The notes under the pieces: generated by a model
The model's input: the letters and a program-made list of their open reading frames with translations, nothing else
Databases searched by the model: none
What the model was told of the DNA's origin: nothing
Shown here: positions 1,633 to 56,699 of the stretch, piece by piece
How the letters are laid out: every line of letters starts with the position of its first letter
Numbering within the stretch: the first letter of the stretch is position 1
Source of the DNA: Clytia hemisphaerica
Taxonomy: Eukaryota; Cnidaria; Hydrozoa; Leptothecata; Clytiidae
DNA length: 64,000 nucleotides
Direction of reading: 5' to 3'
Assembly: GCA_902728285.1 (NCBI GenBank)
Contig: CACVBU010000011.1
Span: 1 to 64,000, forward strand
Program-made: the position numbers and the translations under genes

Positions 1633-1722
1633 AGCCTGGAAATCCAAGCTCAAAATTTTAGAGAAAATAAGTTTTACCTCAGCCAGACAAAGTTCTAAAA
1701 TTATAGAGCTTGGTTCACCTAG
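1633..1722. repeat. Short inverted-repeat (hairpin) element, copy 1
   Basis: Two arms of about 20 bp, CCAAGCTCAAAATTTTAG and CTAAAATTATAGAGCTTGG, flank a short loop. A second copy of the whole segment lies at 38213-38305, including the AGCCTGG lead-in and the ACAAAGTTCTAAAATTATAG arm. Two dispersed copies with the same hairpin design indicate a small mobile or MITE-like repeat. It sits between the two exons of the transposase-like pseudogene. Confidence 0.6.
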
Positions 1723-4037: not shown

Positions 4038-5075
4038 CAGCGGCGGATCTGAGGGGGTTCAAATGGTTCAGCTGAACCACCCCAACCCTTTTAGTAAATA
4101 AAAAAAACAAAGACCATTTCTTCAAGTGAAATCTAGTTTTCTGATCGGAACTGATTTTTCTTTTTGGTCATATCTCGATATTATTTTACCAGGGGTTGTA
4201 TGCATGTGGCGTGCGTTTCCGTGGTGCGCGCGACAAACTTAGCTTTTTCCACGCTAAAAAATCTTTAGGTTATGTGTGTACGGCGTAGCTAGCTTTCCCG
4301 CGCTGTGAAAAATCTTTGTTATGACTTTTTTTTTTGCGGGATTAATATCTAGCTGTGTTCTGTGCTAGGAAAATCTTTGATTTTGAACCTGGTTCAGAAA
4401 ATGCATCCAGTGAAATGGCAAATTTGAGGTGGTTCAAGGAAATTTCTCGAAAATACGAGACCGACCGTTTTGAGCGTAAAAGATTTTCCTACAAAAATAA
4501 CTTTCAGTCGCATGTCGTCGCCGGCAAAATATTAAAATGATTTGAAGGGTAGCCATTCGTACGGCAAACGACCTCACTTCTTTGCAAGCGTTCAATGCAG
4601 TGTTTTAAAGAAAGGAATTGAAGTCCTGAAAAGTGGTAATAATCAGGCAATAATTACTTATCTTTTTGGTTCAATTTAATCAGTAAATTTGAGAATCACA
4701 CAACAATATCAATCAATGTATGATGATTTTGACAAAGACTCTGTGTGATGGAATTTTCATCTGCTTTTGTTTGATGTGGTGAAGAGTGGACAAAAGAAAA
4801 AGACTTTCATTCTGAGGAAACATTTTTGTTTTGGTTTATCTTTAGAGGAAAAGCATTCATTCCAACAAAAACAAAACTTAAATCAATTTTGCTTGATAAA
4901 TGAAGTTTGGAATTTATTTATGGGAAAGGACTTATTTGTGAATATTTCGTGGAAGTTTATCGTGTCTTGAATATAATCACGAATTTACGTTTGGCTCTTC
5001 TCCCATCATCGGGCATCGGGAATATCGCGGGGAAAAATCTACCTAGCTACATATGGATCACAAGATTTGCGATTG

Positions 5076-5183
5076 GCTACGTTTCGAGAGATTCTTCTCC
5101 CATCATTGGACATTGATGAATTTCACATTGCTACGTTTCGAGAGATTCTTCTCCCATCATTGGACATTGATGAATTTCACATG
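5076..5183. repeat. Two-copy tandem duplication, 54-bp period
   Basis: GCTACGTTTCGAGAGATTCT begins at 5076 and again at 5130. The two 54-bp copies are nearly identical and end in GAATTTCACAT. No function is evident. Confidence 0.85.
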
Positions 5184-5806
5184 GAAAAAAAGCTAGCTAG
5201 CTTTATTTTTGAAAACTATTATAGAAAAACAAAACAAAATTTGTTTTATAGAGACTGGAAGAAAGGTTAGGGAACAACATTTTAGCAATTTGATTGAATT
5301 TGGTTGAAGAATGAAGTTTCTGGAAAGGTGAACCTTCATGCATGCTTCAAGATAATGTGATGCGAGGAAATATTTTTGGTTTCGTCATGTCATAAGAAAA
5401 GAGAGTTCATACCACTTTATACTTGCAAAACAAAACTAAGATTACTTTTACGTGATCATATGAAAATGTGGTGTACTTTTATACAAAAAGAGACATTGGT
5501 GACCTCTGAAAAAATTACCCTCTTGTGCTTAATTGTAGGTGCACATTTTGCAATCTTTTGGAAAAAATCACCCAATTAGCATTTTGTAATTTGTGAAATT
5601 TTCCTGATAAAGTGCCAAACCTTCATTTTCCTTGTTTTTTTTGCGAAAATCACCCCAAAATCAGTTAATAATGACCCCCCATTTTATGAATTTTCTCTGA
5701 GAGTACTGCCCCTGCATCTTCCACCCCCTACAAGTAAGCATATAAGAGTACGATTAAATGCAGAATTTATGAAATGATATATAACAACAATCTCTACCAA
5801 AAGAAT

Positions 5807-6254
5807 TACCTTAAGGGAAGAAATTTTCGCGGAAGAAATTTCCGCGGAATTTAATTTCCCGAATTTGGGCGTAATTCGCGAAATTAAATTCCGCGAAACA
5901 CACCAAAATTGTTAAATCGCGAAATTAAATTCCGCGAAATTCGATTTTTTTTCTTCTTCTTTTATTTTGTTGTTTTTGACCAGGTATTACCAAAAAAGAT
6001 GGACACAATTGATTTTTAAGCATTATAACGTGTATTTTTTATCAAATATAAACAAATATAAACAACTCCGTGATGCTTAAAAGTTAATCTAAGTTGATAA
6101 ATTCTTCTCAATCGCGAAATTAAATTCCGTGAAACTTTTAAAATCGGCTCATTCGCGAAATTAAATTCCGTGAAATTTGCCATTTTGAAACTCTGATTCG
6201 CGAAATTAAATTCCGCGAAAATTTCTTCTCGCGAAAATTTCTTCCCTTAAGGTA
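5807..6254. mobile_element. Palindromic MITE rich in CGCGAAA motifs
   Basis: The ends are TACCTTAAGGGAAGAAATTT (5807) and its inverse AAATTTCTTCCCTTAAGGTA (to 6254), giving about 30 bp of terminal inverted repeat that runs on into CGCGAAA. Within, GCGAAATTAAATTCCGCGAAA-type blocks recur at least five times, some in inverted orientation. No coding capacity is seen. A diverged relative with TACCTTTAGGGAAATAATTT is at about 51002. Confidence 0.7.
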
Positions 6255-6259
6255 TAAAC

Positions 6260-7040
6260 AACACTCCATACAATTGTGAAAGTTGAAAAAGTGCTTTCCT
6301 ACAGATTGTTGATGATTACTTTTAGTACCTTTAATAATGCTTAAAAACATCAAACTTTTTACTTTGAATGTAAAAAGTATATTTTTATGAGATTATTCAT
6401 CTAATTTGAGAGCTAGAATTTCTTGAGTCTATTTGCACATAAAACACATTATATCAGTACTCATGGTGTACTCCACTTTTTGGCAATCTTTTATTTTTCC
6501 ATCTTAAGAATATTGTATTCCCTTGTATGTATTATATAAATAATCTCCTTTATTTTTTAACTTTATCGCTGTTTTCAAAATATTATCCATTTCTGGTTTT
6601 ATAATGTAAACCTGTGTAAACATACTCAACATGAAAAGTTTTTGCTTGATTATCAGCCAATTAATTCGCTACAAAGAAATTCCATAAAAAATGGTTATAA
6701 GAATAAATTATCGAACTTTTTTACTATGTTTTAAATATTCACGAAATGAAACTGAAGTGTGTAAAGTATAAAGTATTTAATATTATAAATTGTCTTATTT
6801 TTTCTTCAAACTTTTCTTCAAAACCATTTATTTGCTCTTTTATCTATGGCTTTCTCAAAAACATTTTCTGCAAGAACCATGAATATATAAAAGAATATAC
6901 ACCAAACAAGCAGTTCTGAGCATGCTCTGGGTGTCTGTTTTATCAAAATAAAAGGTTAAACCAAAGAAATATAAGAAATATAATACTAACTATATTTCCG
7001 TTTTATGAACGTTTTGTGTGATAAGATGAAAAGAAGAAAC
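6260..7040. other. AT-rich interior of the hAT-like element, no feature recognised
   Basis: Low-complexity AT-rich sequence with no supported ORF, inverted repeat or RNA gene. Confidence 0.4.
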
Positions 7041-7184
7041 TAGTTGTGCGCAATTGCAGTTAGGGAATTTCCCAATGTATATATGAATATCACCACAAAC
7101 GATTATTACACGTTCAGCCTCTGGCTGTTCAAGCCGGGTCAAAAAAAAATGGCCTACCGCCCTCCCTTCAACGCATGGGACCAT

Positions 7185-7550
7185 TCAAAAAGCGTACGAG
7201 GGGGAGGGGGGTCTTTGAGGAGAAGTACGTACGCTCGTAATTTTTCCTAAACTGTCTTTTTTGAGAAAAAAACACAATATTTTCACATCAAAAAATGGTT
7301 TTTGCGATTGTTATTTTTCATTTCTCCCTTGGTATTTTTGTTCATCTTATAGATTCTTTTAATTTCTTGAGACTTTGTTATAAATACGACTGGATACCTA
7401 CATATTCTACTGTTACAAGAGTTACAAGTTTCGACTTTGGTTAGGGGGGTGTACCAAAAAAGCGTACGTACGCTGAAGGGGGGTACACATAAAGCGTACA
7501 AGGGGGAGGGGGAGTCAAAAATTTGCCATTTTCGAGCGTACGTTTTTTTG
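7185..7550. repeat. GCGTACG/GGGGGAGGGGG motif repeats
   Basis: The pair AAAGCGTACGAGGGGGAGGGG recurs with variation near 7190, 7460 and 7490. It is accompanied by palindromic CGTACGTACG near 7230, 7465 and 7540. The motifs resemble ends of a small element, but I cannot define one boundary pair. The sequence ends directly against the LINE fragment. Confidence 0.45.
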
Positions 7551-8117
7551 AACGAAACGAAATCGAGGTTTTTAACAACCTGGGAGAGAAAGAAATATAT
7601 CACCGGAATGAATGCAAGAGATGCCAAGTGTGTTATGGAGGCTCGCCTTAACATGCTGCCCTTCAGCGATAATTTCAAAGGGACGGCCAGTGTGGGAAAG
7701 AAATGCGAAAGATGCGAGGAATTTGTTCTAAAGACAGAACATATTTTTGAATGTGAAAAGGGTGCAAATGTTATGAAATTAACGGTGGATGACTTGAAGA
7801 ACGGAGATGATATTGAAAGACTGAAACTGGTCAGCAAACATATAAAATTTTTTTTAGATTTACAATATAAGTAGGGAAAGGTTATTATTTAAAAAACAAA
7901 AAACTAAAAAACAATTATTAGTAGGTAGCGCTAGCCCAATCTCTTTTTACCCTTTTTAGGTTTTAAATTTCTTTCCTTTATTTTTTGGGGTAGCTTCCCT
8001 TTTTCAATGTCCATTTTTAGTTCAATGAGCAGGTTTACGGGCCGCGCTACCGAAAGTACTCGCAGAAATTTTATATTTTGTATATAGTTTTTGCCCACCA
8101 AGGTGGAGTGGTATGAT

Positions 8118-8149
<32 letters not shown>
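7551..8149 (+). mobile_element. 5'-truncated LINE 3' end with poly(A) tail
   Basis: The frame from about 7551 to 7874 encodes NETKSRFLTTWERKKYITGM, then EARLNMLPFSDNFKG, then a CERC...TEHIFEC zinc-knuckle-like cluster (C-x2-C...H-x3-C), then a short helical tail and a stop. The combination K-x-RLNMLPF with C-C-H-C near the C-terminus is typical of the end of LINE ORF2 proteins. It is followed by about 245 bp of 3' UTR and a run of 28 A (8122-8149). The reverse transcriptase itself is absent, so this is a dead 5'-truncated copy. The LINE clade cannot be assigned. Confidence 0.6.
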
Positions 8150-9854
8150 TGAGGCCAATGTTTGGAGTTCATAGGTAATGGGAACTGGTGCAGACGTGCA
8201 GGCGCTCATTAACGTCCCCCAAGTTGAATGGAAAAAAGGGGACACCGCCCAAACAGGGCGGGTACAAAATTTACGCCCAAAACGTTTGTTCCGAAAATTT
8301 TTTTTTGAAAAGAGATTTTTGAACCCCCTCAGAAAAATCCCAGATCCGCCTCTGATGATCCAAATCAATATCAATAATGGCAAATGGAAACGTCAAGTCT
8401 AGAATGAAATCACCTTGAAAAAATGTGAAGTTAACAGTTTGCTCAACATGATCAAGAAATACAGTCAAATTCATTTTGTTGCTTTTATCTACTTCGTGTT
8501 AAGAATGAATGATTTGTTTTCGATTCTTTAGAAATTGAAATTGAAAGAAAAAAGATAAAAAAAGTTGACAAATTCTGGGCAATAACTGGGCAATTTGATC
8601 CACAATATTCCATCCAGGAGTGCCTTTGGAATCTGTAGCGTTTGATTGTTCATCAGATGTACCAGTAAAATCACTCTCTTGCTCTGTAACAGCATCAGCC
8701 TGACGCTCAAAAGGTACTGATAGAAGGTCAAGGTCTTCTTCAATCCCTGCATCTACAGTATAAAATAACATTCCTGCTTGATAATAAAGATATTCCATAC
8801 CAATTTTTTCCTCAGTGGCTTTGTTAGGTGGCCTTTGATTGATTTGACTTCCCAGCACTTCATTGTGAAGATGGTTTAAAACAGTAACCAATCTTGCATC
8901 AAAACTCCTTAAATCTCTGAGAATCTTAGTCTCAGCTTCATCGATCCGCGAAACATTCTAGCGTGCCAATCCTTCAATAAGGTACGCCTGAAAATTAATA
9001 GCGTTGGCTCTTCTCCCTGGGATGAACTGATGCAGGTGACGATGAAATGACTCTAATGAAGAACTTCCTCTGGCACAACGGTACTTTGGTAAATCCATCT
9101 TTCCCTTCTTGCTTGTACCAATTTGAGTGTACAAAGAAATATTTGGGGGGTTTTAAAGGCATAGTATGTGAAATTTTTGCTCATTAAAAATGGTTGCAAT
9201 TTCATCCTTCAAAAGTGGAACACCCAAACTGTCAGTCACACCTGTGTAAGCCAAGATAAGATCTTCAATGCTTTTCGTGGTGGCTTCTACTCCTCTGGTC
9301 TTCACGAGTAATGGCTTTTTCAACTGCATCATCAGAGGCGTAAGGAACACCAGATAACCGAAGCTCCTCTCTTTTGGCTGTCATCAATTGGGTGTAATCG
9401 ATTTCAACCCATTAAAAAATACAAGCAGAGAGTTGGCCAAGAAAACATTTATAAAGCGGAAGACTCTCTGAAGTACACCCTTCGCCTAACCTTCTCATAA
9501 AATGATAGATGTCAAGACGCACTGACATCTCCTCCCATTCTGAAAAAAGACGCACTGACATCTCCTCCCATTCTGAAAAAAGACGGTGAAAACGTGTTTC
9601 ATCGTCATTACTACAGCAACCCTGTCAGTGTAAAGCAACTTTGGATGTGGTATATTAGCATCAGCATATCTCCTCATTAACCCATTGGCCATTTCTTGTA
9701 AACCATAATTTGATTCTGTTGATGTAAGGACAGACTGCAAGACACCGCCATACTCATTAGACACATTGGTGACCCAAGTAGCTGTTCCTCTTGCTTCTCC
9801 CGCCAACTTTTTCAAAATTTTCTTCGTTGAATCAATCTTTAAGATGTCCCCAAA

Positions 9855-11930
9855 GGTTTGGTAAACAATATAATCAAGAAGCTTACTGTTTTGTTGTTAG
9901 ATTCAATATCATTATTTGCTTTTGCCGCTGTTTGACCAACTTTTGTAGGTTTAGTAGGTGCCTTAAAAAATTATTGTGACAAGAATTGTTAGGAGGTTTC
10001 AGTTTGTAGGCGTGGGTGCCTTTTGAGTAAAAGTCACGTGGGTTTGTGGGTATTTCAAACTAAATTATTCTAATGAGGTCTTTCTTGAAATTAATGCAAA
10101 TTAAGGATTGAATTTTACCAAATGATCGTGTCAGTAAAGGTTAGGTAAATAATGTAATAAAGAAGCTTACTGTTTTGTTGTTAGATTCAATATCATTATT
10201 TGCTTTTGTCGCTTAAAAAATGATATTATAATGGGTTCTATTGGCATGTCTTATAAAAAATTGTCCAAAATTAAATTGTTTATTATCATATCTTCCACCA
10301 CGTGGTCCACAAAATTTTCGTACATTTGAAATACATGATCCAAATCAATATCAATAATGGCAAATGGAAACGTCAAGTCTAGAATGAAATCACCTTGAAA
10401 AAATGTGAAGTTAACAGTTTGCTCAACATGATCAAGAAATACAGTCAAATTCATTTTGTTGCTTTTATCTACTTCGTGTTAAGAATGAATGATTTGTTTT
10501 CGATTCTTTAGAAATTGAAATTGAAAGAAAAAGATAAAAAAAGTTGACAAATTCTGGGCAATAACTGGGCAATTTGATCCACAATATTCCATCCAGGAGT
10601 GCCTTTGGAATCTGTAGCGTTTGATTGTTCATCAGATGTACCAGTAAAATCACTCTCTTGCTCTGTAACAGCATCAGCCTGACGCTCAAAAGGTACTGAT
10701 AGAAGGTCAAGGTCTTCTTCAATCCCTGCATCTACAGTATAAAATAACATTCCTGCTTGATAATAAAGATATTCCATACCAATTTTTTCCTCAGTGGCTT
10801 TGTTAGGTGGCCTTTGATTGATTTGACTTCCCAGCACTTCATTGTGAAGATGGTTTAAAACAGTAACCAATCTTGCATCAAAACTCCTTAAATCTCTGAG
10901 AATCTTAGTCTCAGCTTCATCGATCCGCGAAACATTCTAGCGTGCCAATCCTTCAATAAGGTACGCCTGAAAATTGATAGCGTTGGCTCTTCTCCCTGGG
11001 ATGAACTGATGCAGGTGACGATGAAATGACTCTAATGAAGTACTTCCTCTGGCACAACGGTACTTTGGTAAATCCATCTTTCCCTTCTTGCTTGTACCAT
11101 TTTGTGATAGCGTTGGCTCTTCTCCCTGGGATGAACTGATGCAGGTGACGATGAAATGACTCTAATGAAGTACTTCCTCTGGCACAACGGTACTTTGGTA
11201 AATCCATCTTTCCCTTCTTGCTTGTACCAATTTGAGTGTACAAAGAAATATTTGGGGGGTTTTAAAGGCATAGTATGTGAAATTTTTGCTCATTAAAAAT
11301 GGTTGCAATTTCATCCTTCAAAAGTGGAACACCCAAACTGTCAGTCACACCTGTGTAAGCCAAGATAAGATCTTCAATGCTTTTCGTGGTGGCTTCTACT
11401 CCTCTGGTCTTCACGAGTAATGGCTTTTTCAACTGCATCATCAGAGGCGTAAGGAACACCAGATAACCGAAGCTCCTCTCTTTTGGCTGTCATCAATTGG
11501 GTGTAATCGATTTCAAACCATTAAAAAATACAAGCAGAGAGTTGGCCAAGAAAACATTTATAAAGCGGAAGACTCTCTGAAGTACACCCTTCGCCTAACC
11601 TTCTCATAAAATGATAGATGTCAAGACGCACTGACATCTCCTCCCATTCTGAAAAAAGAGGGTGAAAACGTGTTTCATCGTCATTACTACAGCAACCCTG
11701 TCAGTGTAAAGCAACTTTGGATGTGGTATATTAGCATCATCATATCTCCTCATTAACCCATTGGCCATTTCTTGTAAACCATAATTTGATTCTGTTGATG
11801 TAAGGACAGACTGCAAGACACCGCCATACTCATTAGACACATTGGTGACCCAAGTAGCTGTTCCTCTTGCTTCTCCCGCCAACTTTTTCAAAATTTTCTT
11901 CGTTGAATCAATCTTTAAGATGTCCCCAAA
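9855..11930. repeat. Array unit 1 (type A, 2076 bp)
   Basis: Type A is marked by a 130-bp tandem duplication (10976-11105 repeated from 11106), by TCTTATAAAAAA creating a stop after LILDNFL, and by GGCATAG near 11268. This first A unit differs from units 3 and 5 by GGTTTGG at its start and one missing T in GCCTTTTGAG, and by RQKQ-type sequence typical of the left flank. Confidence 0.85.
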
Positions 11931-13877
11931 GGTTAGGTAAACAATATAATCAAGAAGCTTACTGTTTTGTTGTTAGATTCAATATCATTATTTGCTTTTG
12001 CCGCTGTTTGACCAACTTTTGTAGGTTTTGTAGGTGCCTTAAAAAATTATTGTGACAAGAATTGTTAGGAGGTTTCAGTTTGTAGGCGTGGGTGCCTTTT
12101 TGAGTAAAAGTCACGTGGGTTTGTGGGTATTTCAAACTAAATTATTCTAATGAGGTCTTTCTTGAAATTAATGCAAATTAAGGATTGAATTTTACCAAAT
12201 GATCGTGTCAGTAAAGGTTAGGTAAACAATGTAATAAAGAAGCTTACTGTTTTGTTGTTAGATTCAATATCATTATTTGCTTTTGTGGCTTAAAAAATGA
12301 TATTATAATGGGTTCTATTGCCATGTCTTCTAAAAAATTGTCCAAAATTAAATTGTTTATTATCATATCTTCCACCACGTGGTCCACAAAATTTTCGTAC
12401 ATTTGAAATACATGATCCAAATCAATATCAATAATGGCAAATGGAAACGTCAAGTCTAGAATGAAATCACCTTGAAAAAATGTGAAGTTAACAGTTTGCT
12501 CAACATGATCAAGAAATACAGTCAAATTCATTTTGTTGCTTTTATCTACTTCGTGTTAAGAATGAATGTTTTGTTTTCGATTCTTTAGAAATTGAAATTG
12601 AAAGAAAAAGATAAAAAAAGTTGACAAATTCTGGGCAATAACTGGGCAATTTGATCTACAATATTCCATCCAGGAGTGCCTTTGGAATCTGTAGCGTTCG
12701 ATTGTTCATCAGCTGTACCAGTAAAATCACTCTCTTGCTCTGTAACAGCATCAGCCTGACGCTCAAAAGGTACTGATAGAAGGTCAAGGTCTTCTTCAAT
12801 CCCTGCATCTACAGTATAAAATAACATTCCTGCTTGATAATAAAGATATTCCATACCAATTTTTTCCTCAGTGGCTTTGTTAGGTGGCCTTTGATTGATT
12901 TGACTTCCCAGCACTTCATTGTGAAGATGGTTTAAAACAGTAACCAATCTTGCATCAAAACTCCTTAAATCTCTGAGAATCTTAGTCTCAGCTTCATCGA
13001 TCCGCGAAACATTCTAGCGTGCCAATCCTTCAATAAGGTACGCCTGAAAATTGATAGCGTTGGCTCTTCTCCCTGGGATGAACTGATGCAGGTGACGATG
13101 AAATGACTCTAATGAAGTACTTCCTCTGGCACAACGGTACTTTGGTAAATCCATCTTTCCCTTCTTGCTTGTACCAATTTGAGTGTACAAAGAAATATTT
13201 GGGGGGTTTTAAATGCATAGTATGTGAAATTTTTGCTCATTATAAATGGTTGCAATTTCATCCTTCAAAAGTGGAACACCCAAACTGTCAGTCACACCTG
13301 TGTAAGCCAAGATAAGATCTTCAATGCTTTTCGTGGTGGCTTCTACTCCTCTGGTCTTCACGAGTAATGGCTTTTTCAACTGCATCATCAGAGGCGTAAG
13401 GAACACCAGATAACCGAAGCTCCTCTCTTTTGGATGTCATCAATTGGGTGTAATCGATTTCAACCCATTAAAAAATACAAGCAGAGAGTTGGCCAAGAAA
13501 ACATTTATAAAGCGGAAGACTCTCTGAAGTACACCCTTCGCCTAACCTTCTCATAAAATGATAGATGTCAAGACGCACTGACATCTCCTCCCATTCTGAA
13601 AAAAAAACGGTGAAAACGTGTTTCATCGTCATTACTACAGCAACCCTGTCAGTGTAAAGCAACTTTGGATGTGGTATATTAGCATCAGCATATCTCCTCA
13701 TTAACCCATTGGTCATTTCTTGTAAACCATAATTTGATTCTGTTGATGTAAGGACAGACTGCAAGACACCCCCATACTCATTAGACACATTGGTGACCCA
13801 AGTAGCTGTTCCTCTTGCTTCTCCCGCCAACTTTTTCAAAATTTTCTTCGTTGAATCAATCTTAAGATGTCCCCAAA
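11931..13877. repeat. Array unit 2 (type B, 1947 bp)
   Basis: Type B lacks the 130-bp duplication. It carries FFKPQKQ, TADEQSN and QEMTNGLMRR variants and a nine-A run near 13599. That run keeps VFFSEWEEMSVRLDIYHFMRR open, including the LD..HFMRR motif expected around the second catalytic Asp. It has a private EDMAIEP variant where units 4 and 6 read EDMPIEP. Confidence 0.85.
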
Positions 13878-15954
13878 GGTTAGGTAAACAATATAATCAA
13901 GAAGCTTACTGTTTTGTTGTTAGATTCAATATCATTATTTGCTTTTGCCGCTGTTTGACCAACTTTTGTAGGTTTAGTAGGTGCCTTAAAAAATTATTGT
14001 GACAAGAATTGTTAGGAGGTTTCAGTTTGTAGGCGTGGGTGCCTTTTTGAGTAAAAGTCACGTGGGTTTGTGGGTATTTCAAACTAAATTATTCTAATGA
14101 GGTCTTTCTTGAAATTAATGCAAATTAAGGATTGAATTTTACCAAATGATCGTGTCAGTAAAGGTTAGGTAAATAATGTAATAAAGAAGCTTACTGTTTT
14201 GTTGTTAGATTCAATATCATTATTTGCTTTTGTCGCTTAAAAAATGATATTATAATGGGTTCTATTGGCATGTCTTATAAAAAATTGTCCAAAATTAAAT
14301 TGTTTATTATCATATCTTCCACCACGTGGTCCACAAAATTTTCGTACATTTGAAATACATGATCCAAATCAATATCAATAATGGCAAATGGAAACGTCAA
14401 GTCTAGAATGAAATCACCTTGAAAAAATGTGAAGTTAACAGTTTGCTCAACATGATCAAGAAATACAGTCAAATTCATTTTGTTGCTTTTATCTACTTCG
14501 TGTTAAGAATGAATGATTTGTTTTCGATTCTTTAGAAATTGAAATTGAAAGAAAAAGATAAAAAAAGTTGACAAATTCTGGGCAATAACTGGGCAATTTG
14601 ATCCACAATATTCCATCCAGGAGTGCCTTTGGAATCTGTAGCGTTTGATTGTTCATCAGATGTACCAGTAAAATCACTCTCTTGCTCTGTAACAGCATCA
14701 GCCTGACGCTCAAAAGGTACTGATAGAAGGTCAAGGTCTTCTTCAATCCCTGCATCTACAGTATAAAATAACATTCCTGCTTGATAATAAAGATATTCCA
14801 TACCAATTTTTTCCTCAGTGGCTTTGTTAGGTGGCCTTTGATTGATTTGACTTCCCAGCACTTCATTGTGAAGATGGTTTAAAACAGTAACCAATCTTGC
14901 ATCAAAACTCCTTAAATCTCTGAGAATCTTAGTCTCAGCTTCATCGATCCGCGAAACATTCTAGCGTGCCAATCCTTCAATAAGGTACGCCTGAAAATTG
15001 ATAGCGTTGGCTCTTCTCCCTGGGATGAACTGATGCAGGTGACGATGAAATGACTCTAATGAAGTACTTCCTCTGGCACAACGGTACTTTGGTAAATCCA
15101 TCTTTCCCTTCTTGCTTGTACCATTTTGTGATAGCGTTGGCTCTTCTCCCTGGGATGAACTGATGCAGGTGACGATGAAATGACTCTAATGAAGTACTTC
15201 CTCTGGCACAACGGTACTTTGGTAAATCCATCTTTCCCTTCTTGCTTGTACCAATTTGAGTGTACAAAGAAATATTTGGGGGGTTTTAAAGGCATAGTAT
15301 GTGAAATTTTTGCTCATTAAAAATGGTTGCAATTTCATCCTTCAAAAGTGGAACACCCAAACTGTCAGTCACACCTGTGTAAGCCAAGATAAGATCTTCA
15401 ATGCTTTTCGTGGTGGCTTCTACTCCTCTGGTCTTCACGAGTAATGGCTTTTTCAACTGCATCATCAGAGGCGTAAGGAACACCAGATAACCGAAGCTCC
15501 TCTCTTTTGGCTGTCATCAATTGGGTGTAATCGATTTCAAACCATTAAAAAATACAAGCAGAGAGTTGGCCAAGAAAACATTTATAAAGCGGAAGACTCT
15601 CTGAAGTACACCCTTCGCCTAACCTTCTCATAAAATGATAGATGTCAAGACGCACTGACATCTCCTCCCATTCTGAAAAAAGAGGGTGAAAACGTGTTTC
15701 ATCGTCATTACTACAGCAACCCTGTCAGTGTAAAGCAACTTTGGATGTGGTATATTAGCATCATCATATCTCCTCATTAACCCATTGGCCATTTCTTGTA
15801 AACCATAATTTGATTCTGTTGATGTAAGGACAGACTGCAAGACACCGCCATACTCATTAGACACATTGGTGACCCAAGTAGCTGTTCCTCTTGCTTCTCC
15901 CGCCAACTTTTTCAAAATTTTCTTCGTTGAATCAATCTTTAAGATGTCCCCAAA
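13878..15954. repeat. Array unit 3 (type A, 2077 bp)
   Basis: This unit has all the type A markers, including the 130-bp duplication at 15000-15259 and RRYDDAN in the RNase-H-like block. The frame breaks at AAAAAAGAGGGTG, giving FFQNGRRCQC instead of FFSEWEEM. I see no difference from unit 5 in the encoded segments. Confidence 0.85.
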
Positions 15955-17901
15955 GGTTAGGTAAACAATATAATCAAGAAGCTTACTGTTTTGTTGTTAG
16001 ATTCAATATCATTATTTGCTTTTGCCGCTGTTTGACCAACTTTTGTAGGTTTTGTAGGTGCCTTAAAAAATTATTGTGACAAGAATTGTTAGGAGGTTTC
16101 AGTTTGTAGGCGTGGGTGCCTTTTTGAGTAAAAGTCACGTGGGTTTGTGGGTATTTCAAACTAAATTATTCTAATGAGGTCTTTCTTGAAATTAATGCAA
16201 ATTAAGGATTGAATTTTACCAAATGATCGTGTCAGTAAAGGTTAGGTAAACAATGTAATAAAGAAGCTTACTGTTTTGTTGTTAGATTCAATATCATTAT
16301 TTGCTTTTGTGGCTTAAAAAATGATATTATAATGGGTTCTATTGGCATGTCTTCTAAAAAATTGTCCAAAATTAAATTGTTTATTATCATATCTTCCACC
16401 ACGTGGTCCACAAAATTTTCGTACATTTGAAATACATGATCCAAATCAATATCAATAATGGCAAATGGAAACGTCAAGTCTAGAATGAAATCACCTTGAA
16501 AAAATGTGAAGTTAACAGTTTGCTCAACATGATCAAGAAATACAGTCAAATTCATTTTGTTGCTTTTATCTACTTCGTGTTAAGAATGAATGTTTTGTTT
16601 TCGATTCTTTAGAAATTGAAATTGAAAGAAAAAGATAAAAAAAGTTGACAAATTCTGGGCAATAACTGGGCAATTTGATCTACAATATTCCATCCAGGAG
16701 TGCCTTTGGAATCTGTAGCGTTCGATTGTTCATCAGCTGTACCAGTAAAATCACTCTCTTGCTCTGTAACAGCATCAGCCTGACGCTCAAAAGGTACTGA
16801 TAGAAGGTCAAGGTCTTCTTCAATCCCTGCATCTACAGTATAAAATAACATTCCTGCTTGATAATAAAGATATTCCATACCAATTTTTTCCTCAGTGGCT
16901 TTGTTAGGTGGCCTTTGATTGATTTGACTTCCCAGCACTTCATTGTGAAGATGGTTTAAAACAGTAACCAATCTTGCATCAAAACTCCTTAAATCTCTGA
17001 GAATCTTAGTCTCAGCTTCATCGATCCGCGAAACATTCTAGCGTGCCAATCCTTCAATAAGGTACGCCTGAAAATTGATAGCGTTGGCTCTTCTCCCTGG
17101 GATGAACTGATGCAGGTGACGATGAAATGACTCTAATGAAGTACTTCCTCTGGCACAACGGTACTTTGGTAAATCCATCTTTCCCTTCTTGCTTGTACCA
17201 ATTTGAGTGTACAAAGAAATATTTGGGGGGTTTTAAATGCATAGTATGTGAAATTTTTGCTCATTATAAATGGTTGCAATTTCATCCTTCAAAAGTGGAA
17301 CACCCAAACTGTCAGTCACACCTGTGTAAGCCAAGATAAGATCTTCAATGCTTTTCGTGGTGGCTTCTACTCCTCTGGTCTTCACGAGTAATGGCTTTTT
17401 CAACTGCATCATCAGAGGCGTAAGGAACACCAGATAACCGAAGCTCCTCTCTTTTGGATGTCATCAATTGGGTGTAATCGATTTCAACCCATTAAAAAAT
17501 ACAAGCAGAGAGTTGGCCAAGAAAACATTTATAAAGCGGAAGACTCTCTGAAGTACACCCTTCGCCTAACCTTCTCATAAAATGATAGATGTCAAGACGC
17601 ACTGACATCTCCTCCCATTCTGAAAAAAAAACGGTGAAAACGTGTTTCATCGTCATTACTACAGCAACCCTGTCAGTGTAAAGCAACTTTGGATGTGGTA
17701 TATTAGCATCAGCATATCTCCTCATTAACCCATTGGTCATTTCTTGTAAACCATAATTTGATTCTGTTGATGTAAGGACAGACTGCAAGACACCCCCATA
17801 CTCATTAGACACATTGGTGACCCAAGTAGCTGTTCCTCTTGCTTCTCCCGCCAACTTTTTCAAAATTTTCTTCGTTGAATCAATCTTAAGATGTCCCCAA
17901 A
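15955..17901. repeat. Array unit 4 (type B, 1947 bp)
   Basis: This unit carries the type B variants FFKPQKQ, TADEQSN and QEMTNGLMRR and the nine-A run. It is indistinguishable from unit 6 in the encoded segments. Confidence 0.85.
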
Positions 17902-19978
17902 GGTTAGGTAAACAATATAATCAAGAAGCTTACTGTTTTGTTGTTAGATTCAATATCATTATTTGCTTTTGCCGCTGTTTGACCAACTTTTGTAGGTTTA
18001 GTAGGTGCCTTAAAAAATTATTGTGACAAGAATTGTTAGGAGGTTTCAGTTTGTAGGCGTGGGTGCCTTTTTGAGTAAAAGTCACGTGGGTTTGTGGGTA
18101 TTTCAAACTAAATTATTCTAATGAGGTCTTTCTTGAAATTAATGCAAATTAAGGATTGAATTTTACCAAATGATCGTGTCAGTAAAGGTTAGGTAAATAA
18201 TGTAATAAAGAAGCTTACTGTTTTGTTGTTAGATTCAATATCATTATTTGCTTTTGTCGCTTAAAAAATGATATTATAATGGGTTCTATTGGCATGTCTT
18301 ATAAAAAATTGTCCAAAATTAAATTGTTTATTATCATATCTTCCACCACGTGGTCCACAAAATTTTCGTACATTTGAAATACATGATCCAAATCAATATC
18401 AATAATGGCAAATGGAAACGTCAAGTCTAGAATGAAATCACCTTGAAAAAATGTGAAGTTAACAGTTTGCTCAACATGATCAAGAAATACAGTCAAATTC
18501 ATTTTGTTGCTTTTATCTACTTCGTGTTAAGAATGAATGATTTGTTTTCGATTCTTTAGAAATTGAAATTGAAAGAAAAAGATAAAAAAAGTTGACAAAT
18601 TCTGGGCAATAACTGGGCAATTTGATCCACAATATTCCATCCAGGAGTGCCTTTGGAATCTGTAGCGTTTGATTGTTCATCAGATGTACCAGTAAAATCA
18701 CTCTCTTGCTCTGTAACAGCATCAGCCTGACGCTCAAAAGGTACTGATAGAAGGTCAAGGTCTTCTTCAATCCCTGCATCTACAGTATAAAATAACATTC
18801 CTGCTTGATAATAAAGATATTCCATACCAATTTTTTCCTCAGTGGCTTTGTTAGGTGGCCTTTGATTGATTTGACTTCCCAGCACTTCATTGTGAAGATG
18901 GTTTAAAACAGTAACCAATCTTGCATCAAAACTCCTTAAATCTCTGAGAATCTTAGTCTCAGCTTCATCGATCCGCGAAACATTCTAGCGTGCCAATCCT
19001 TCAATAAGGTACGCCTGAAAATTGATAGCGTTGGCTCTTCTCCCTGGGATGAACTGATGCAGGTGACGATGAAATGACTCTAATGAAGTACTTCCTCTGG
19101 CACAACGGTACTTTGGTAAATCCATCTTTCCCTTCTTGCTTGTACCATTTTGTGATAGCGTTGGCTCTTCTCCCTGGGATGAACTGATGCAGGTGACGAT
19201 GAAATGACTCTAATGAAGTACTTCCTCTGGCACAACGGTACTTTGGTAAATCCATCTTTCCCTTCTTGCTTGTACCAATTTGAGTGTACAAAGAAATATT
19301 TGGGGGGTTTTAAAGGCATAGTATGTGAAATTTTTGCTCATTAAAAATGGTTGCAATTTCATCCTTCAAAAGTGGAACACCCAAACTGTCAGTCACACCT
19401 GTGTAAGCCAAGATAAGATCTTCAATGCTTTTCGTGGTGGCTTCTACTCCTCTGGTCTTCACGAGTAATGGCTTTTTCAACTGCATCATCAGAGGCGTAA
19501 GGAACACCAGATAACCGAAGCTCCTCTCTTTTGGCTGTCATCAATTGGGTGTAATCGATTTCAAACCATTAAAAAATACAAGCAGAGAGTTGGCCAAGAA
19601 AACATTTATAAAGCGGAAGACTCTCTGAAGTACACCCTTCGCCTAACCTTCTCATAAAATGATAGATGTCAAGACGCACTGACATCTCCTCCCATTCTGA
19701 AAAAAGAGGGTGAAAACGTGTTTCATCGTCATTACTACAGCAACCCTGTCAGTGTAAAGCAACTTTGGATGTGGTATATTAGCATCATCATATCTCCTCA
19801 TTAACCCATTGGCCATTTCTTGTAAACCATAATTTGATTCTGTTGATGTAAGGACAGACTGCAAGACACCGCCATACTCATTAGACACATTGGTGACCCA
19901 AGTAGCTGTTCCTCTTGCTTCTCCCGCCAACTTTTTCAAAATTTTCTTCGTTGAATCAATCTTTAAGATGTCCCCAAA
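17902..19978. repeat. Array unit 5 (type A, 2077 bp)
   Basis: Same length and variants as unit 3, offset by exactly 4024 bp. The 130-bp duplication is at 19024-19283. Confidence 0.85.
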
Positions 19979-21925
19979 GGTTAGGTAAACAATATAATCA
20001 AGAAGCTTACTGTTTTGTTGTTAGATTCAATATCATTATTTGCTTTTGCCGCTGTTTGACCAACTTTTGTAGGTTTTGTAGGTGCCTTAAAAAATTATTG
20101 TGACAAGAATTGTTAGGAGGTTTCAGTTTGTAGGCGTGGGTGCCTTTTTGAGTAAAAGTCACGTGGGTTTGTGGGTATTTCAAACTAAATTATTCTAATG
20201 AGGTCTTTCTTGAAATTAATGCAAATTAAGGATTGAATTTTACCAAATGATCGTGTCAGTAAAGGTTAGGTAAACAATGTAATAAAGAAGCTTACTGTTT
20301 TGTTGTTAGATTCAATATCATTATTTGCTTTTGTGGCTTAAAAAATGATATTATAATGGGTTCTATTGGCATGTCTTCTAAAAAATTGTCCAAAATTAAA
20401 TTGTTTATTATCATATCTTCCACCACGTGGTCCACAAAATTTTCGTACATTTGAAATACATGATCCAAATCAATATCAATAATGGCAAATGGAAACGTCA
20501 AGTCTAGAATGAAATCACCTTGAAAAAATGTGAAGTTAACAGTTTGCTCAACATGATCAAGAAATACAGTCAAATTCATTTTGTTGCTTTTATCTACTTC
20601 GTGTTAAGAATGAATGTTTTGTTTTCGATTCTTTAGAAATTGAAATTGAAAGAAAAAGATAAAAAAAGTTGACAAATTCTGGGCAATAACTGGGCAATTT
20701 GATCTACAATATTCCATCCAGGAGTGCCTTTGGAATCTGTAGCGTTCGATTGTTCATCAGCTGTACCAGTAAAATCACTCTCTTGCTCTGTAACAGCATC
20801 AGCCTGACGCTCAAAAGGTACTGATAGAAGGTCAAGGTCTTCTTCAATCCCTGCATCTACAGTATAAAATAACATTCCTGCTTGATAATAAAGATATTCC
20901 ATACCAATTTTTTCCTCAGTGGCTTTGTTAGGTGGCCTTTGATTGATTTGACTTCCCAGCACTTCATTGTGAAGATGGTTTAAAACAGTAACCAATCTTG
21001 CATCAAAACTCCTTAAATCTCTGAGAATCTTAGTCTCAGCTTCATCGATCCGCGAAACATTCTAGCGTGCCAATCCTTCAATAAGGTACGCCTGAAAATT
21101 GATAGCGTTGGCTCTTCTCCCTGGGATGAACTGATGCAGGTGACGATGAAATGACTCTAATGAAGTACTTCCTCTGGCACAACGGTACTTTGGTAAATCC
21201 ATCTTTCCCTTCTTGCTTGTACCAATTTGAGTGTACAAAGAAATATTTGGGGGGTTTTAAATGCATAGTATGTGAAATTTTTGCTCATTATAAATGGTTG
21301 CAATTTCATCCTTCAAAAGTGGAACACCCAAACTGTCAGTCACACCTGTGTAAGCCAAGATAAGATCTTCAATGCTTTTCGTGGTGGCTTCTACTCCTCT
21401 GGTCTTCACGAGTAATGGCTTTTTCAACTGCATCATCAGAGGCGTAAGGAACACCAGATAACCGAAGCTCCTCTCTTTTGGATGTCATCAATTGGGTGTA
21501 ATCGATTTCAACCCATTAAAAAATACAAGCAGAGAGTTGGCCAAGAAAACATTTATAAAGCGGAAGACTCTCTGAAGTACACCCTTCGCCTAACCTTCTC
21601 ATAAAATGATAGATGTCAAGACGCACTGACATCTCCTCCCATTCTGAAAAAAAAACGGTGAAAACGTGTTTCATCGTCATTACTACAGCAACCCTGTCAG
21701 TGTAAAGCAACTTTGGATGTGGTATATTAGCATCAGCATATCTCCTCATTAACCCATTGGTCATTTCTTGTAAACCATAATTTGATTCTGTTGATGTAAG
21801 GACAGACTGCAAGACACCCCCATACTCATTAGACACATTGGTGACCCAAGTAGCTGTTCCTCTTGCTTCTCCCGCCAACTTTTTCAAAATTTTCTTCGTT
21901 GAATCAATCTTAAGATGTCCCCAAA
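19979..21925. repeat. Array unit 6 (type B, 1947 bp)
   Basis: Same length and variants as unit 4, offset by exactly 4024 bp. It is the last unit of the regular dimer pattern. Confidence 0.85.
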
Positions 21926-23872
21926 GGTTAGGTAAACAATATAATCAAGAAGCTTACTGTTTTGTTGTTAGATTCAATATCATTATTTGCTTTTGCCGCT
22001 GTTTGACCAACTTTTGTAGGTTTAGTAGGTGCCTTAAAAAATTATTGTGACAAGAATTGTTAGGAGGTTTCAGTTTGTAGGCGTGGGTGCCTTTTTGAGT
22101 AAAAGTCACGTGGGTTTGTGGGTATTTCAAACTAAATTATTCTAATGAGGTCTTTCTTGAAATTAATGCAAATTAAGGATTGAATTTTACCAAATGATCG
22201 TGTCAGTAAAGGTTAGGTAAACAATGTAATAAAGAAGCTTACTGTTTTGTTGTTAGATTCAATATCATTATTTGCTTTTGTCGCTTAAAAAATGATATTA
22301 TAATGGGTTCTATTGGCATGTCTTCTAAAAAATTGTCCAAAATTAAATTGTTTATTATCATATCTTCCACCACGTGGTCCACAAAATTTTCGTACATTTG
22401 AAATACATGATCCAAATCAATATCAATAATGGCAAATGGAAACGTCAAGTCTAGAATGAAATCACCTTGAAAAAATGTGAAGTTAACAGTTTGCTCAACA
22501 TGATCAAGAAATACAGTCAAATTCATTTTGTTGCTTTTATCTACTTCGTGTTAAGAATGAATGTTTTGTTTTCGATTCTTTAGAAATTGAAATTGAAAGA
22601 AAAAGATAAAAAAAGTTGACAAATTCTGGGCAATAACTGGGCAATTTGATCTACAATATTCCATCCAGGAGTGCCTTTGGAATCTGTAGCGTTCGATTGT
22701 TCATCAGATGTACCAGTAAAATCACTCTCTTGCTCTGTAACAGCATCAGCCTGACGCTCAAAAGGTACTGATAGAAGGTCAAGGTCTTCTTCAATCCCTG
22801 CATCTACAGTATAAAATAACATTCCTGCTTGATAATAAAGATATTCCATACCAATTTTTTCCTCAGTGGCTTTGTTAGGTGGCCTTTGATTGATTTGACT
22901 TCCCAGCACTTCATTGTGAAGATGGTTTAAAACAGTAACCAATCTTGCATCAAAACTCCTTAAATCTCTGAGAATCTTAGTCTCAGCTTCATCGATCCGC
23001 GAAACATTCTAGCGTGCCAATCCTTCAATAAGGTACGCCTGAAAATTGATAGCGTTGGCTCTTCTCCCTGGGATGAACTGATGCAGGTGACGATGAAATG
23101 ACTCTAATGAAGTACTTCCTCTGGCACAACGGTACTTTGGTAAATCCATCTTTCCCTTCTTGCTTGTACCAATTTGAGTGTACAAAGAAATATTTGGGGG
23201 GTTTTAAATGCATAGTATGTGAAATTTTTGCTCATTATAAATGGTTGCAATTTCATCCTTCAAAAGTGGAACACCCAAACTGTCAGTCACACCTGTGTAA
23301 GCCAAGATAAGATCTTCAATGCTTTTCGTGGTGGCTTCTACTCCTCTGGTCTTCACGAGTAATGGCTTTTTCAACTGCATCATCAGAGGCGTAAGGAACA
23401 CCAGATAACCGAAGCTCCTCTCTTTTGGCTGTCATCAATTGGGTGTAATCGATTTCAACCCATTAAAAAATACAAGCAGAGAGTTGGCCAAGAAAACATT
23501 TATAAAGCGGAAGACTCTCTGAAGTACACCCTTCGCCTAACCTTCTCATAAAATGATAGATGTCAAGACGCACTGACATCTCCTCCCATTCTGAAAAAAA
23601 AACGGTGAAAACGTGTTTCATCGTCATTACTACAGCAACCCTGTCAGTGTAAAGCAACTTTGGATGTGGTATATTAGCATCATCATATCTCCTCATTAAC
23701 CCATTGGCCATTTCTTGTAAACCATAATTTGATTCTGTTGATGTAAGGACAGACTGCAAGACACCCCCATACTCATTAGACACATTGGTGACCCAAGTAG
23801 CTGTTCCTCTTGCTTCTCCCGCCAACTTTTTCAAAATTTTCTTCGTTGAATCAATCTTAAGATGTCCCCAAA
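21926..23872. repeat. Array unit 7 (A/B mosaic, 1947 bp)
   Basis: It has the length and nine-A run of type B, but FFKRQKQ, TSDEQSN and QEMANGLMRRYDDAN like type A and the right-hand units. This mosaic of variants suggests gene conversion or an unequal crossover between unit types. Confidence 0.8.
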
Positions 23873-25781
23873 GGTTAGGTAAACAATATAATCAAGAAGC
23901 TTACTGTTTTGTTGTTAGATTCAATATCATTATTTGCTTTTGCCGCTGTTTGACCAACTTTTGTAGGTTTAGTAGGTGCCTTAAAAAATTATTGTGACAA
24001 GAATTGTTAGGAGGTTTCAGTTTGTAGGCGTGGGTGCCTTTTTGAGTAAAAGTCACGTGGGTTTGTGGGTATTTCAAACTAAATTATTCTAATGAGGTCT
24101 TTCTTGAAATTAATGCAAATTAAGGATTGAATTTTACCAAATGATCGTGTCAGTAAAGGTTAGGTAAACAATGTAATAAAGAAGCTTACTGTTTTGTTGT
24201 TAGATTCAATATCATTATTTGCTTTTGTCGCTTAAAAAATGATATTATAATGGGTTCTATTGGCATGTCTTCTAAAAAATTGTCCAAAATTAAATTGTTT
24301 ATTATCATATCTTCCACCACGTGGTCCACAAAATTTTCGTACATTTGAAATACATGATCCAAATCAATATCAATAATGGCAAATGGAAACGTCAAGTCTA
24401 GAATGAAATCACCTTGAAAAAATGTGAAGTTAACAGTTTGCTCAACATGATCAAGAAATACAGTCAAATTCATTTTGTTGCTTTTATCTACTTCGTGTTA
24501 AGAATGAATGTTTTGTTTTCGATTCTTTAGAAATTGAAATTGAAAGAAAAAGATAAAAAAAGTTGACAAATTCTGGGCAATAACTGGGCAATTTGATCTA
24601 CAATATTCCATCCAGGAGTGCCTTTGGAATCTGTAGCGTTCGATTGTTCATCAGATGTACCAGTAAAATCACTCTCTTGCTCTGTAACAGCATCAGCCTG
24701 ACGCTCAAAAGGTACTGATATAAAATAACATTCCTGCTTGATAATAAAGATATTCCATACCAATTTTTTCCTCAGTGGCTTTGTTAGGTGGCCTTTGATT
24801 GATTTGACTTCCCAGCACTTCATTGTGAAGATGGTTTAAAACAGTAACCAATCTTGCATCAAAACTCCTTAAATCTCTGAGAATCTTAGTCTCAGCTTCA
24901 TCGATCCGCGAAACATTCTAGCGTGCCAATCCTTCAATAAGGTACGCCTGAAAATTGATAGCGTTGGCTCTTCTCCCTGGGATGAACTGATGCAGGTGAC
25001 GATGAAATGACTCTAATGAAGTACTTCCTCTGGCACAACGGTACTTTGGTAAATCCATCTTTCCCTTCTTGCTTGTACCAATTTGAGTGTACAAAGAAAT
25101 ATTTGGGGGGTTTTAAATGCATAGTATGTGAAATTTTTGCTCATTATAAATGGTTGCAATTTCATCCTTCAAAAGTGGAACACCCAAACTGTCAGTCACA
25201 CCTGTGTAAGCCAAGATAAGATCTTCAATGCTTTTCGTGGTGGCTTCTACTCCTCTGGTCTTCACGAGTAATGGCTTTTTCAACTGCATCATCAGAGGCG
25301 TAAGGAACACCAGATAACCGAAGCTCCTCTCTTTTGGCTGTCATCAATTGGGTGTAATCGATTTCAACCCATTAAAAAATACAAGCAGAGAGTTGGCCAA
25401 GAAAACATTTATAAAGCGGAAGACTCTCTGAAGTACACCCTTCGCCTAACCTTCTCATAAAATGATAGATGTCAAGACGCACTGACATCTCCTCCCATTC
25501 TGAAAAAAGACGGTGAAAACGTGTTTCATCGTCATTACTACAGCAACCCTGTCAGTGTAAAGCAACTTTGGATGTGGTATATTAGCATCATCATATCTCC
25601 TCATTAACCCATTGGCCATTTCTTGTAAACCATAATTTGATTCTGTTGATGTAAGGACAGACTGCAAGACACCGCCATACTCATTAGACACATTGGTGAC
25701 CCAAGTAGCTGTTCCTCTTGCTTCTCCCGCCAACTTTTTCAAAATTTTCTTCGTTGAATCAATCTTTAAGATGTCCCCAAA
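23873..25781. repeat. Array unit 8 (1909 bp, 38-bp deletion)
   Basis: A 38-bp deletion after GGTACTGATA (24719) removes the segment encoding the DAGIEEDLDLL stretch of the C-terminal block and shifts the frame. The rest follows the right-hand unit type with the FFQNGRR frame break. Confidence 0.85.
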
Positions 25782-27726
25782 GGTTAGGTAAACAATATAA
25801 TCAAGAAGCTTACTGTTTTGTTGTTAGATTCAATATCATTATTTGCTTTTGCCGCTGTTTGACCAACTTTTGTAGGTTTAGTAGGTGCCTTAAAAAATTA
25901 TTGTGACAAGAATTGTTAGGAGGTTTCAGTTTGTAGGCGTGGGTGCCTTTTTGAGTAAAAGTCACGTGGGTTTGTGGGTATTTCAAACTAAATTATTCTA
26001 ATGAGGTCTTTCTTGAAATTAATGCAAATTAAGGATTGAATTTTACCAAATGATCGTGTCAGTAAAGGTTAGGTAAACAATGTAATAAAGAAGCTTACTG
26101 TTTTGTTGTTAGATTCAATATCATTATTTGCTTTTGTCGCTTAAAAAATGATATTATAATGGGTTCTATTGGCATGTCTTCTAAAAAATTGTCCAAAATT
26201 AAATTGTTTATTATCATATCTTCCACCACGTGGTCCACAAAATTTTCGTACATTTGAAATACATGATCCAAATCAATATCAATAATGGCAAATGGAAACG
26301 TCAAGTCTAGAATGAAATCACCTTGAAAAAATGTGAAGTTAACAGTTTGCTCAACATGATCAAGAAATACAGTCAAATTCATTTTGTTGCTTTTATCTAC
26401 TTCGTGTTAAGAATGAATGTTTTGTTTTCGATTCTTTAGAAATTGAAATTGAAAGAAAAAGATAAAAAAAGTTGACAAATTCTGGGCAATAACTGGGCAA
26501 TTTGATCCACAATATTCCATCCAGGAGTGCCTTTGGAATCTGTAGCGTTCGATTGTTCATCAGATGTACCAGTAAAATCACTCTCTTGCTCTGTAACAGC
26601 ATCAGCCTGACGCTCAAAAGGTACTGATAGAAGGTCAAGGTCTTCTTCAATCCCTGCATCTACAGTATAAAATAACATTCCTGCTTGATAATAAAGATAT
26701 TCCATACCAATTTTTTCCTCAGTGGCTTTGTTAGGTGGCCTTTGATTGATTTGACTTCCCAGCACTTCATTGTGAAGATGGTTTAAAACAGTAACCAATC
26801 TTGCATCAAAACTCCTTAAATCTCTGAGAATCTTAGTCTCAGCTTCATCGATCCGCGAAACATTCTAGCGTGCCAATCCTTCAATAAGGTACGCCTGAAA
26901 ATTGATAGCGTTGGCTCTTCTCCCTGGGATGAACTGATGCAGGTGACGATGAAATGACTCTAATGAAGTACTTCCTCTGGCACAACGGTACTTTGGTAAA
27001 TCCATCTTTCCCTTCTTGCTTGTACCAATTTGAGTGTACAAAGAAATATTTGGGGGGTTTTAAATGCATAGTATGTGAAATTTTTGCTCATTATAAATGG
27101 TTGCAATTTCATCCTTCAAAAGTGGAACACCCAAACTGTCAGTCACACCTGTGTAAGCCAAGATAAGATCTTCAATGCTTTTCGTGGTGGCTTCTACTCC
27201 TCTGGTCTTCACGAGTAATGGCTTTTTCAACTGCATCATCAGAGGCGTAAGGAACACCAGATAACCGAAGCTCCTCTCTTTTGGCTGTCATCAATTGGGT
27301 GTAATCGATTTCAACCCATTAAAAAATACAAGCAGAGAGTTGGCCAAGAAAACATTTATAAAGCGGAAGACTCTCTGAAGTACACCCTTCGCCTAACCTT
27401 CTCATAAAATGATAGATGTCAAGACGCACTGACATCTCCTCCCATTCTGAAAAAAGACGGTGAAAACGTGTTTCATCGTCATTACTACAGCAACCCTGTC
27501 AGTGTAAAGCAACTTTGGATGTGGTATATTAGCATCATCATATCTCCTCATTAACCCATTGGCCATTTCTTGTAAACCATAATTTGATTCTGTTGATGTA
27601 AGGACAGACTGCAAGACACCGCCATACTCATTAGACACATTGGTGACCCAAGTAGCTGTTCCTCTTGCTTCTCCCGCCAACTTTTTCAAAATTTCTTCGT
27701 TGAATCAATCTTAAGATGTCCCCAAA
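25782..27726. repeat. Array unit 9 (1945 bp)
   Basis: Basic-type unit. The only length change is two single-base losses near the junction (CAAAATTTCTTCG and CAATCTTAAG). Confidence 0.85.
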
Positions 27727-56693: not shown

Positions 56694-56699
56694 CTTAAC

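Follow-up and report, generated by a model that had tools for sequence, protein, structure and literature searches.

How can a broken piece of a protein-coding gene become a tandem repeat with a dimeric, higher-order organization? The question is raised by the start of contig C8 of Clytia hemisphaerica. The window analyzed here is the whole stretch C8:1-64000 (64,000 nucleotides); the contig begins at window position 1. The reading favored here, with a probability of roughly 0.7, is a young gene-derived megasatellite in which a derived unit of ~1.95 kb spread and an A-B pair of units was duplicated twice as a 4024-bp block.

There are 11 complete units, each 1909-2140 bp, over 9843-31987. To their left, unit DNA that surrounds two extra stretches occupies 1-4037 and 8355-9842, and to their right a partial unit runs to 32303 (Table 1). 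The tandem array noted in the first-pass annotation is real, but it is larger than was described there. A kilobase-scale tandem unit, here in 11 complete copies plus flanking unit DNA, is the mark of a megasatellite, for which unit sizes of "up to several kb" are given (PMC2588610). Neither visible end of the array is natural, since the contig starts within it and its last unit is broken off at a dispersed repeat, and the number and order of the units rest on the assembly for the same reasons.

Table 1. Features of the array and its surroundings in the window.
Feature	Position	Strand	Remarks
Leftmost visible unit DNA (gene fragment)	1..1275	-	97.7-98.4% to later units, longest matches; contig start
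2.27-kb stretch, absent from all other array units in the window	1276..3548	-	DUF6729 coding pieces 1368-1637, 2848-3150
Unit DNA right of the 2.27-kb stretch, up to the transposable element	3549..4037	.	98.0-98.8% to array units
Dispersed transposable element within unit DNA	4038..8354	.	Inverted ends, 5-bp flanking repeat
U00, A-like (A'), without the 130-bp duplication	8355..9842	-	5/1454 to A, 13/1453 to B
U01, type A, dimer 1	9843..11918	-	
U02, type B, dimer 1	11919..13865	-	
U03, type A, dimer 2	13866..15942	-	0/2077 differences to U05
U04, type B, dimer 2	15943..17889	-	0/1947 differences to U06
U05, type A, dimer 3	17890..19966	-	
U06, type B, dimer 3	19967..21913	-	
U07, B-like (B'), without six B states	21914..23860	-	6/1947 to U04/U06, 12/1946 to U03/U05
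U08-U11, further units	23861..31987	-	U08: 38-bp deletion; U10, U11: 194-bp duplication
U12, unit truncated by dispersed repeat W	31988..32303	-	
Dispersed repeat W, terminates array	32304..34607	.	Located at GTAA^TAAAG of unit
130-bp duplication, type A mark	10975..11234, 14999-15258, 19023-19282	.	

The transposable element within the unit DNA has the inverted ends CAGCGGCGGATC and CAGAGGCGGATC and is flanked on both sides by the 5-bp repeat ATGAT. A search with its left 362 bp gave 167 candidate loci in the genome, and the 40 that were scored, itself included, are 95-100% identical. Repeat W has 1464 candidate places, and among the 40 scored there are nine other copies that run end to end (within 2 bases) at 91-97%. 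A flank in common with contig C430 (32736-34610), considered as a segmental duplication, was rejected as such, being part of this dispersed repeat.

The dimeric organization of the first-pass annotation is confirmed by direct observation. The landmark GATGTCCCCAAAGGTT occurs at 9843, 11919, 13866, 15943, 17890, 19967 and 21914, and units 1-6 (9843-21913) follow the order A-B-A-B-A-B with a period of 4024 bp. Alternating spacings of 2077 and 1947 bp had been reported for these points; the last five (1947, 2077, 1947, 2077 and 1947 bp) stand, but the first is 2076 rather than 2077 bp, its T run being 1 bp shorter. At a lag of 4024 there is one mismatch (12321) among the 8177 positions from 10021 to 18197, so that 10021-22221 is almost perfectly periodic. 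Among the 24 events polymorphic in U01-U06, 21 (18 substitutions and 3 indels) alternate perfectly as ABABAB; the remaining three are single-unit changes, all in dimer 1. Dimers 2 (13866-17889) and 3 (17890-21913), which the first-pass annotation took to be the most recent, are the most alike, being identical (0/4024); dimer 1 is set apart from them by 2 substitutions and a single 1-bp indel.

Comparisons of A with A and B with B give 0 or 1 substitution (99.95-100%), near 100% as predicted, whereas A and B differ by 18-20 substitutions over 1945-1946 aligned sites (99.0-99.1%) and by three indels, an identity that is "clearly lower", as the prediction had it, only when set against 99.95-100%. 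Identity between blocks (99.9-100%) exceeds that between neighbors within a block (99.0-99.1%), which is the pattern of a higher-order repeat in the general sense.

Most of the proposed private markers behave as described. The 130-bp duplication is confined to the three A units, as is the stop after LILDNFL (10274, 14298 and 18322); TADEQ (12716, 16740 and 20764) and FFKPQKQ (12297, 16321 and 20345) occur in the B units alone. The nine-A run, by contrast, is not private to B, as U07 carries it too (23587). U00 has a private 33-bp duplication of its own (9514-9585). The ends of the local duplications match over 3 bp for the 194-bp one and 6 bp for the 33-bp one; at the 130-bp duplication no comparable match was seen.

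The units on either side of the tripled block are each related to one of its two types. U00 is closest to A and U07 closest to B, which gives the order A'-[A-B]x3-B', and both groupings recur in a tree of 15 rows (support 80/79 for U00 with A and 94/94 for U07 with B), although in this tree no branch attained the star level of the tool and the bootstrap was still unsettled. U00 has the A states at columns 651, 976, 1623 and 1652, but lacks the 130-bp duplication and the A states at columns 1873 and 2050, and its left part (3549-4037) lacks those at columns 309 and 412. U07 has the nine-A run and columns 740, 2048, 2213 and 2306 in common with B, but lacks the B states at columns 111, 369, 990, 1843, 2130 and 2155 (the direction at 2130 being ambiguous). 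This pattern of relatedness, itself a direct observation, fits the earlier suggestion that an already diverged pair was amplified, each neighbor grouping with one type while lacking several type-specific changes.

It may be asked whether the three dimers are instead an assembly construct, in which an assembler or gap closer copied one or two real dimers into three. Dimers 2 and 3 are letter-for-letter identical, an identity that can also come from consensus polishing, and the contig start falls within the array. There are local error clusters, and the single N in the window lies between two 200-bp near-copies (35056-35460), which suggests forced joins. An imperfect consensus is indicated by the five short gaps and 4 substitutions in U11's second copy of the 194-bp duplication, where U10 has 2 substitutions, and by a number of short indels close to the start of the contig. 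However, three differences separate dimer 1 from dimers 2 and 3, and substitutions make up 18 of the 21 alternating events, whereas consensus error typically leaves short indels. Even if copies had been added artificially, A' and B' would still enclose one real A-B pair. An assembly construct seems unlikely.

The monomer itself had been described as the 3' part of a transposase-like gene, but the first half of that description is wrong and the second is not borne out. It is an internal fragment, corresponding to residues ~261-699 of an intact 1088-residue frame found elsewhere (a DUF6729 gene), and it adjoins a second, small exon-like repeat. Four aligned stretches of the array (a B, an A, U10 and the tail) cover residues 261-699 only; the DUF6729 domain, at residues 23-247 of the frame, is absent from the monomer. 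The frame of the paralogue on contig C786 matches PF20499 (DUF6729) with an E value of 6e-65, and up to E 10 the intact paralogue has no Pfam match other than DUF6729. No transposase domain was returned by Pfam, and the best match among PDB sequences of solved structures had an E value of 1.1, so that no test bears out the transposase label. Fold prediction from a single sequence, for a 132-residue fragment from the window, gave an unusable model (mean pLDDT 38). A Pfam scan of five array frames of the window found no family above the cut-off, one sub-threshold match (E 0.022) being disregarded; of two frames on C430, one gave DUF6729 (1.4e-23) along with a further match below threshold (0.14), and the other had no match. 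DUF6729 matches are clustered on other contigs, with six on C726 and four on C760, and C473 has a second array, with a 2.61-kb period, that carries the same exon-like repeat. A literature search for "DUF6729" found no paper, and among the titles and starts of abstracts listed no DUF6729-derived or coral higher-order repeat was found.

The DUF6729 part missing from the other units is retained in the window at 1276-3548, with PF20499 matches at C8:1368-1637 and C8:2848-3150; at this junction the other units read ...CCCCAAAGGTT straight through. The same 2.27-kb stretch is present at the same place on C430 (whole) and on C786 (two inner stretches missing), with partial matches on C811, and it is therefore read as kept DNA; its interpretation as an insertion was dropped. 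The two inner stretches absent from C786 may be later insertions, and, as C786 lacks about half, part of the 2.27 kb may be a later insertion common to C8 and C430. Since the exon-like repeat flanks the gene fragment of C430 on both sides (824381 and 828314), tandem repetition seems to be older than the 2.27-kb loss.

In the favored history, a chimeric unit, made of an internal DUF6729 gene piece and the short exon-like repeat, would first have been tandemly repeated with its DUF6729 part retained. A 2.27-kb loss between three matching bases would then have shortened one unit, and the resulting ~1.95-kb derivative would have spread via tandem duplication. A' would have become A by gaining the 130-bp duplication and about 4 substitutions, and B' would have become B by gaining about 5 substitutions, after which the A-B pair would have been duplicated twice as a 4024-bp block. 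The time order of these steps, and a preference for unequal exchange over replicative duplication, are what we infer from the array. Unequal homologous exchange between units two apart would be the simplest route, because the block edges lie within DNA that is identical between the partners, yet unequal exchange would here yield the same product as replication-based duplication or rolling-circle reinsertion. Replicative or circle-based amplification, with block reinsertion of copies made from a circular or re-replicated A-B dimer, would produce identical 4024-bp copies in one step, and the edges of the block are not visible; but only three copies are present and dimer 1 is slightly different, which fits two ordinary duplications; amplification of this kind is rather improbable. 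That the array might be a centromeric or subtelomeric satellite with a selected dimer is suggested by the dimer layout only and would be very hard to credit, given an A-B difference of about 1%, a telomere-type repeat in 0 of the 40 rows of a tandem-repeat scan, and matches of at least 97% to the exon-like repeat (protein search) that are confined to C8 and C430. The DNA search with the monomer, in which very common words were skipped and just three C8 pieces were listed, is not a census. The array itself is probably without function.

Growth by copying a neighboring pair is an ordinary mode for such repeats, and a new mechanism is unnecessary. It is tentatively proposed that the locus captures a higher-order repeat at birth, with near relatives of the two parent monomers (A' and B') flanking the freshly tripled A-B block and the DUF6729 stretch, lost from the other units, kept in the array, so that a single locus would display every step from gene fragment to dimeric satellite. 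The array offers a compact and readable case of a gene fragment turning into a dimeric tandem repeat, and likely intermediates remain in place; it is useful for testing assembly quality in long arrays as well as models of how tandem repeats grow.

Known systems resemble this array in part. Like human alpha-satellite dimers and higher-order repeats, it has two alternating types and a between-block identity that exceeds the within-block identity (PMC8122249). However, human alpha-satellite has 171-bp monomers (PMC4585704) and is centromeric, the two units of a dimer can differ by up to ~30%, and monomers of higher-order repeats are ~70% identical (PMC8122249). With three dimers and an A-B difference of ~1% (18-20/~1946), the strongly diverged monomers within a block that characterize the alpha-satellite type are not found here, and the first-pass comparison to that style was an over-reading. 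Coral tandemly duplicated genes are also gene-bearing tandem units, but those are annotated genes (PMC10236652), whereas the units here are broken fragments. The retrotransposon-derived satellites of the plant Lathyrus, where growth from mobile-element parts is counted as a likeness, differ in starting as short tandem repeats inside LTR elements (PMC7004042). The human MaLR "LTR arrays", a megasatellite, likewise have kilobase-scale tandem monomers, higher-order repeats and inferred unequal crossing over; their monomers derive from a mobile element, and many of the arrays have just 4-9 units (PMC2588610). The MaLR arrays stem from an LTR retrotransposon, number 25 and include a 6-unit higher-order repeat (PMC2588610), whereas the single array seen here is built from a DUF6729-gene fragment, with a 2-unit higher-order repeat and about 1% between its types.

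Comparison of the window (bases 1 to 64,000 of contig C8, in a genome of 417 Mb in 951 contigs) with itself reveals that bases 1-32303 form a tandem array whose left part contains two additional stretches. The window's HEPN_DZIP3 frame and its LINE-type endonuclease and reverse transcriptase would fit an animal source, perhaps a cnidarian. Units were cut at the landmark GATGTCCCCAAAGGTT, the position of the borders being arbitrary. From 9843 to 21914, successive landmarks are 2076, 1947, 2077, 1947, 2077 and 1947 bp apart; the alternation described in the first-pass annotation thus holds to 21914, although the first spacing had been given as 2077. Because a single mismatch occurs at a lag of 4024 across positions 10021-18197, the region 10021-22221 is periodic. 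Type A units (units 1, 3 and 5) differ from one another at 0-1 sites, as do type B units (units 2, 4 and 6), in keeping with the near-complete identity expected within each type, and A differs from B at 18-20 substituted sites in ~1946. Across units 1-6, the pattern ABABAB is seen in 21 of 24 variable events; the other three are each private to one unit, all in the first A-B dimer, and dimers 2 and 3 show no differences. The markers described as private to A or B show the stated recurrence, with one exception: unit 7 also has the nine-A run.

The unit preceding the dimers (unit 0, 8355-9842) is nearer to A, with 5 differences in 1454 positions versus 13 in 1453 to B, and lacks the 130-bp duplication. 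Unit 7, which follows them, is nearer to B (6 in 1947 to units 4 and 6 versus 12 in 1946 to units 3 and 5), with six B states missing; at one of these, column 2130, the B state is common to units 0, -1 and 11, and the direction of change is ambiguous. In a tree of 15 rows, 11 of them different, unit 0 joins the A units (80/79) and unit 7 joins the B units (94/94); every branch stays below the star level of the tool, and the bootstrap had yet to settle. These affinities give a layout of A'-[A-B]x3-B', in which A' is unit 0 and B' is unit 7. The last marker in B units is alignment column 2308, and A and unit 7 first become distinguishable at column 309 (the mismatch at 18198), so the block edges lie within DNA identical between partners. 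Homologous exchange would predict edges in such DNA, as observed, and replicative duplication would also be compatible.

The monomer had been described as the 3' part of a transposase-like gene. At C786:176140-179403, on another contig, a paralogue contains a 1088-residue open frame in which DUF6729 (residues 23-247) is the sole Pfam family. Four stretches of the array, namely one B unit, one A unit, unit 10 and the tail, align to its residues 261-699 and show breaks in the frame; positions 1-4038 additionally align, piecewise, to residues 1-237. Since these four stretches match only 261-699, the monomer carries an internal fragment instead, with ~390 C-terminal residues also absent. No test result identifies the gene as a transposase, which it may resemble. 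In this genome, DUF6729 has 49 matches among 55 scored candidates; exon-sized pieces are among the matches, so that 49 is no gene count, and there are none in 14 control genomes. Clusters of matches lie on single contigs, with six at C726:105590-157435 and four at C760:2872103-2893812, and the family thus seems prone to tandem repetition.

A short exon-like repeat occupies the remainder of the monomer. An 89-residue query gave 31 matches, all scored: 14 on C8, all in the array, two on C430, and 15 on six further contigs (C473, eight; C594 and C941, two each; C361, C566 and C904, one each). Among the C8 rows, its stop is found in the three A units only. A second tandem array containing this repeat is located at C473:1439591-1452647 (L015, L016), with a period of ~2.61 kb and copies 98.7-99.3% alike.

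The left part of the array includes a 2.27-kb stretch (1276-3548) with DUF6729 pieces. It is complete in C430, in two pieces at 95.6 and 98.1%; C786 has both ends and a middle piece, with query positions 373-1196 and 1274-1589 missing, and C811 has partial matches. Other array units would have lost this stretch, and parts of it may be insertions common to C8 and C430. In C430, the exon-like repeat lies on both sides of the gene fragment, which suggests that the long unit was tandemly repeated first, before the 2.27 kb was lost. A high-copy element would later have inserted in the unit to the right of the stretch.

Contig base 1 is itself unit DNA, and the array ends on the right at a dispersed repeat, W. 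Another W copy, at C430:822120-824329, shares 96.6% identity with this one across 1879 aligned columns; the unit that comes next starts TAAAG, the same site from the opposite side. These junctions would fit either W-W recombination or a mis-join at W, and it may be that the C430 relative is the lost continuation of the array. In unit 11, the second 194-bp copy differs from the first by five short gaps and 4 substitutions; in unit 10, by 2 substitutions only. The irregularities in unit 11 are taken as consensus error, perhaps from long-read assembly, and the unit count is provisional.

Elements, repeats and coding frames within and beyond the array
Feature	Position	Strand	Description
High-copy element	4038-8354		inverted ends CAGMGGCGGATC; 5-bp flanking repeat ATGAT on each side
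Repeat W	32304-34607		cuts the last unit at GTAA^TAAAG
Near-copies around a single N	35056-35460		200 bp on each side, 93.6% alike; resembles two overlapping contig ends that a scaffolder has joined
Minisatellite	36295-36608		30-bp period, 10.5 copies; then repeats of 13- to 38-bp period up to 37090
HEPN_DZIP3 frame	40253-41251		332 residues, E 5e-22
Head-to-tail pair	55554-56696		574 bp, 99.7% alike
LINE-like element	57417-59960	minus	endonuclease-reverse transcriptase and RVT_1 frames

Arrays of this kind have precedents. In human LTR arrays, kilobase monomers derived from mobile elements form higher-order repeats, for which unequal crossing over is inferred (PMC2588610). Alpha-satellite dimer units diverge by up to ~30% (PMC8122249), whereas A and B differ here at only 18-20 of ~1946 sites. 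The C8 array belongs to the same kind, as a two-unit case that is both young and shallow.
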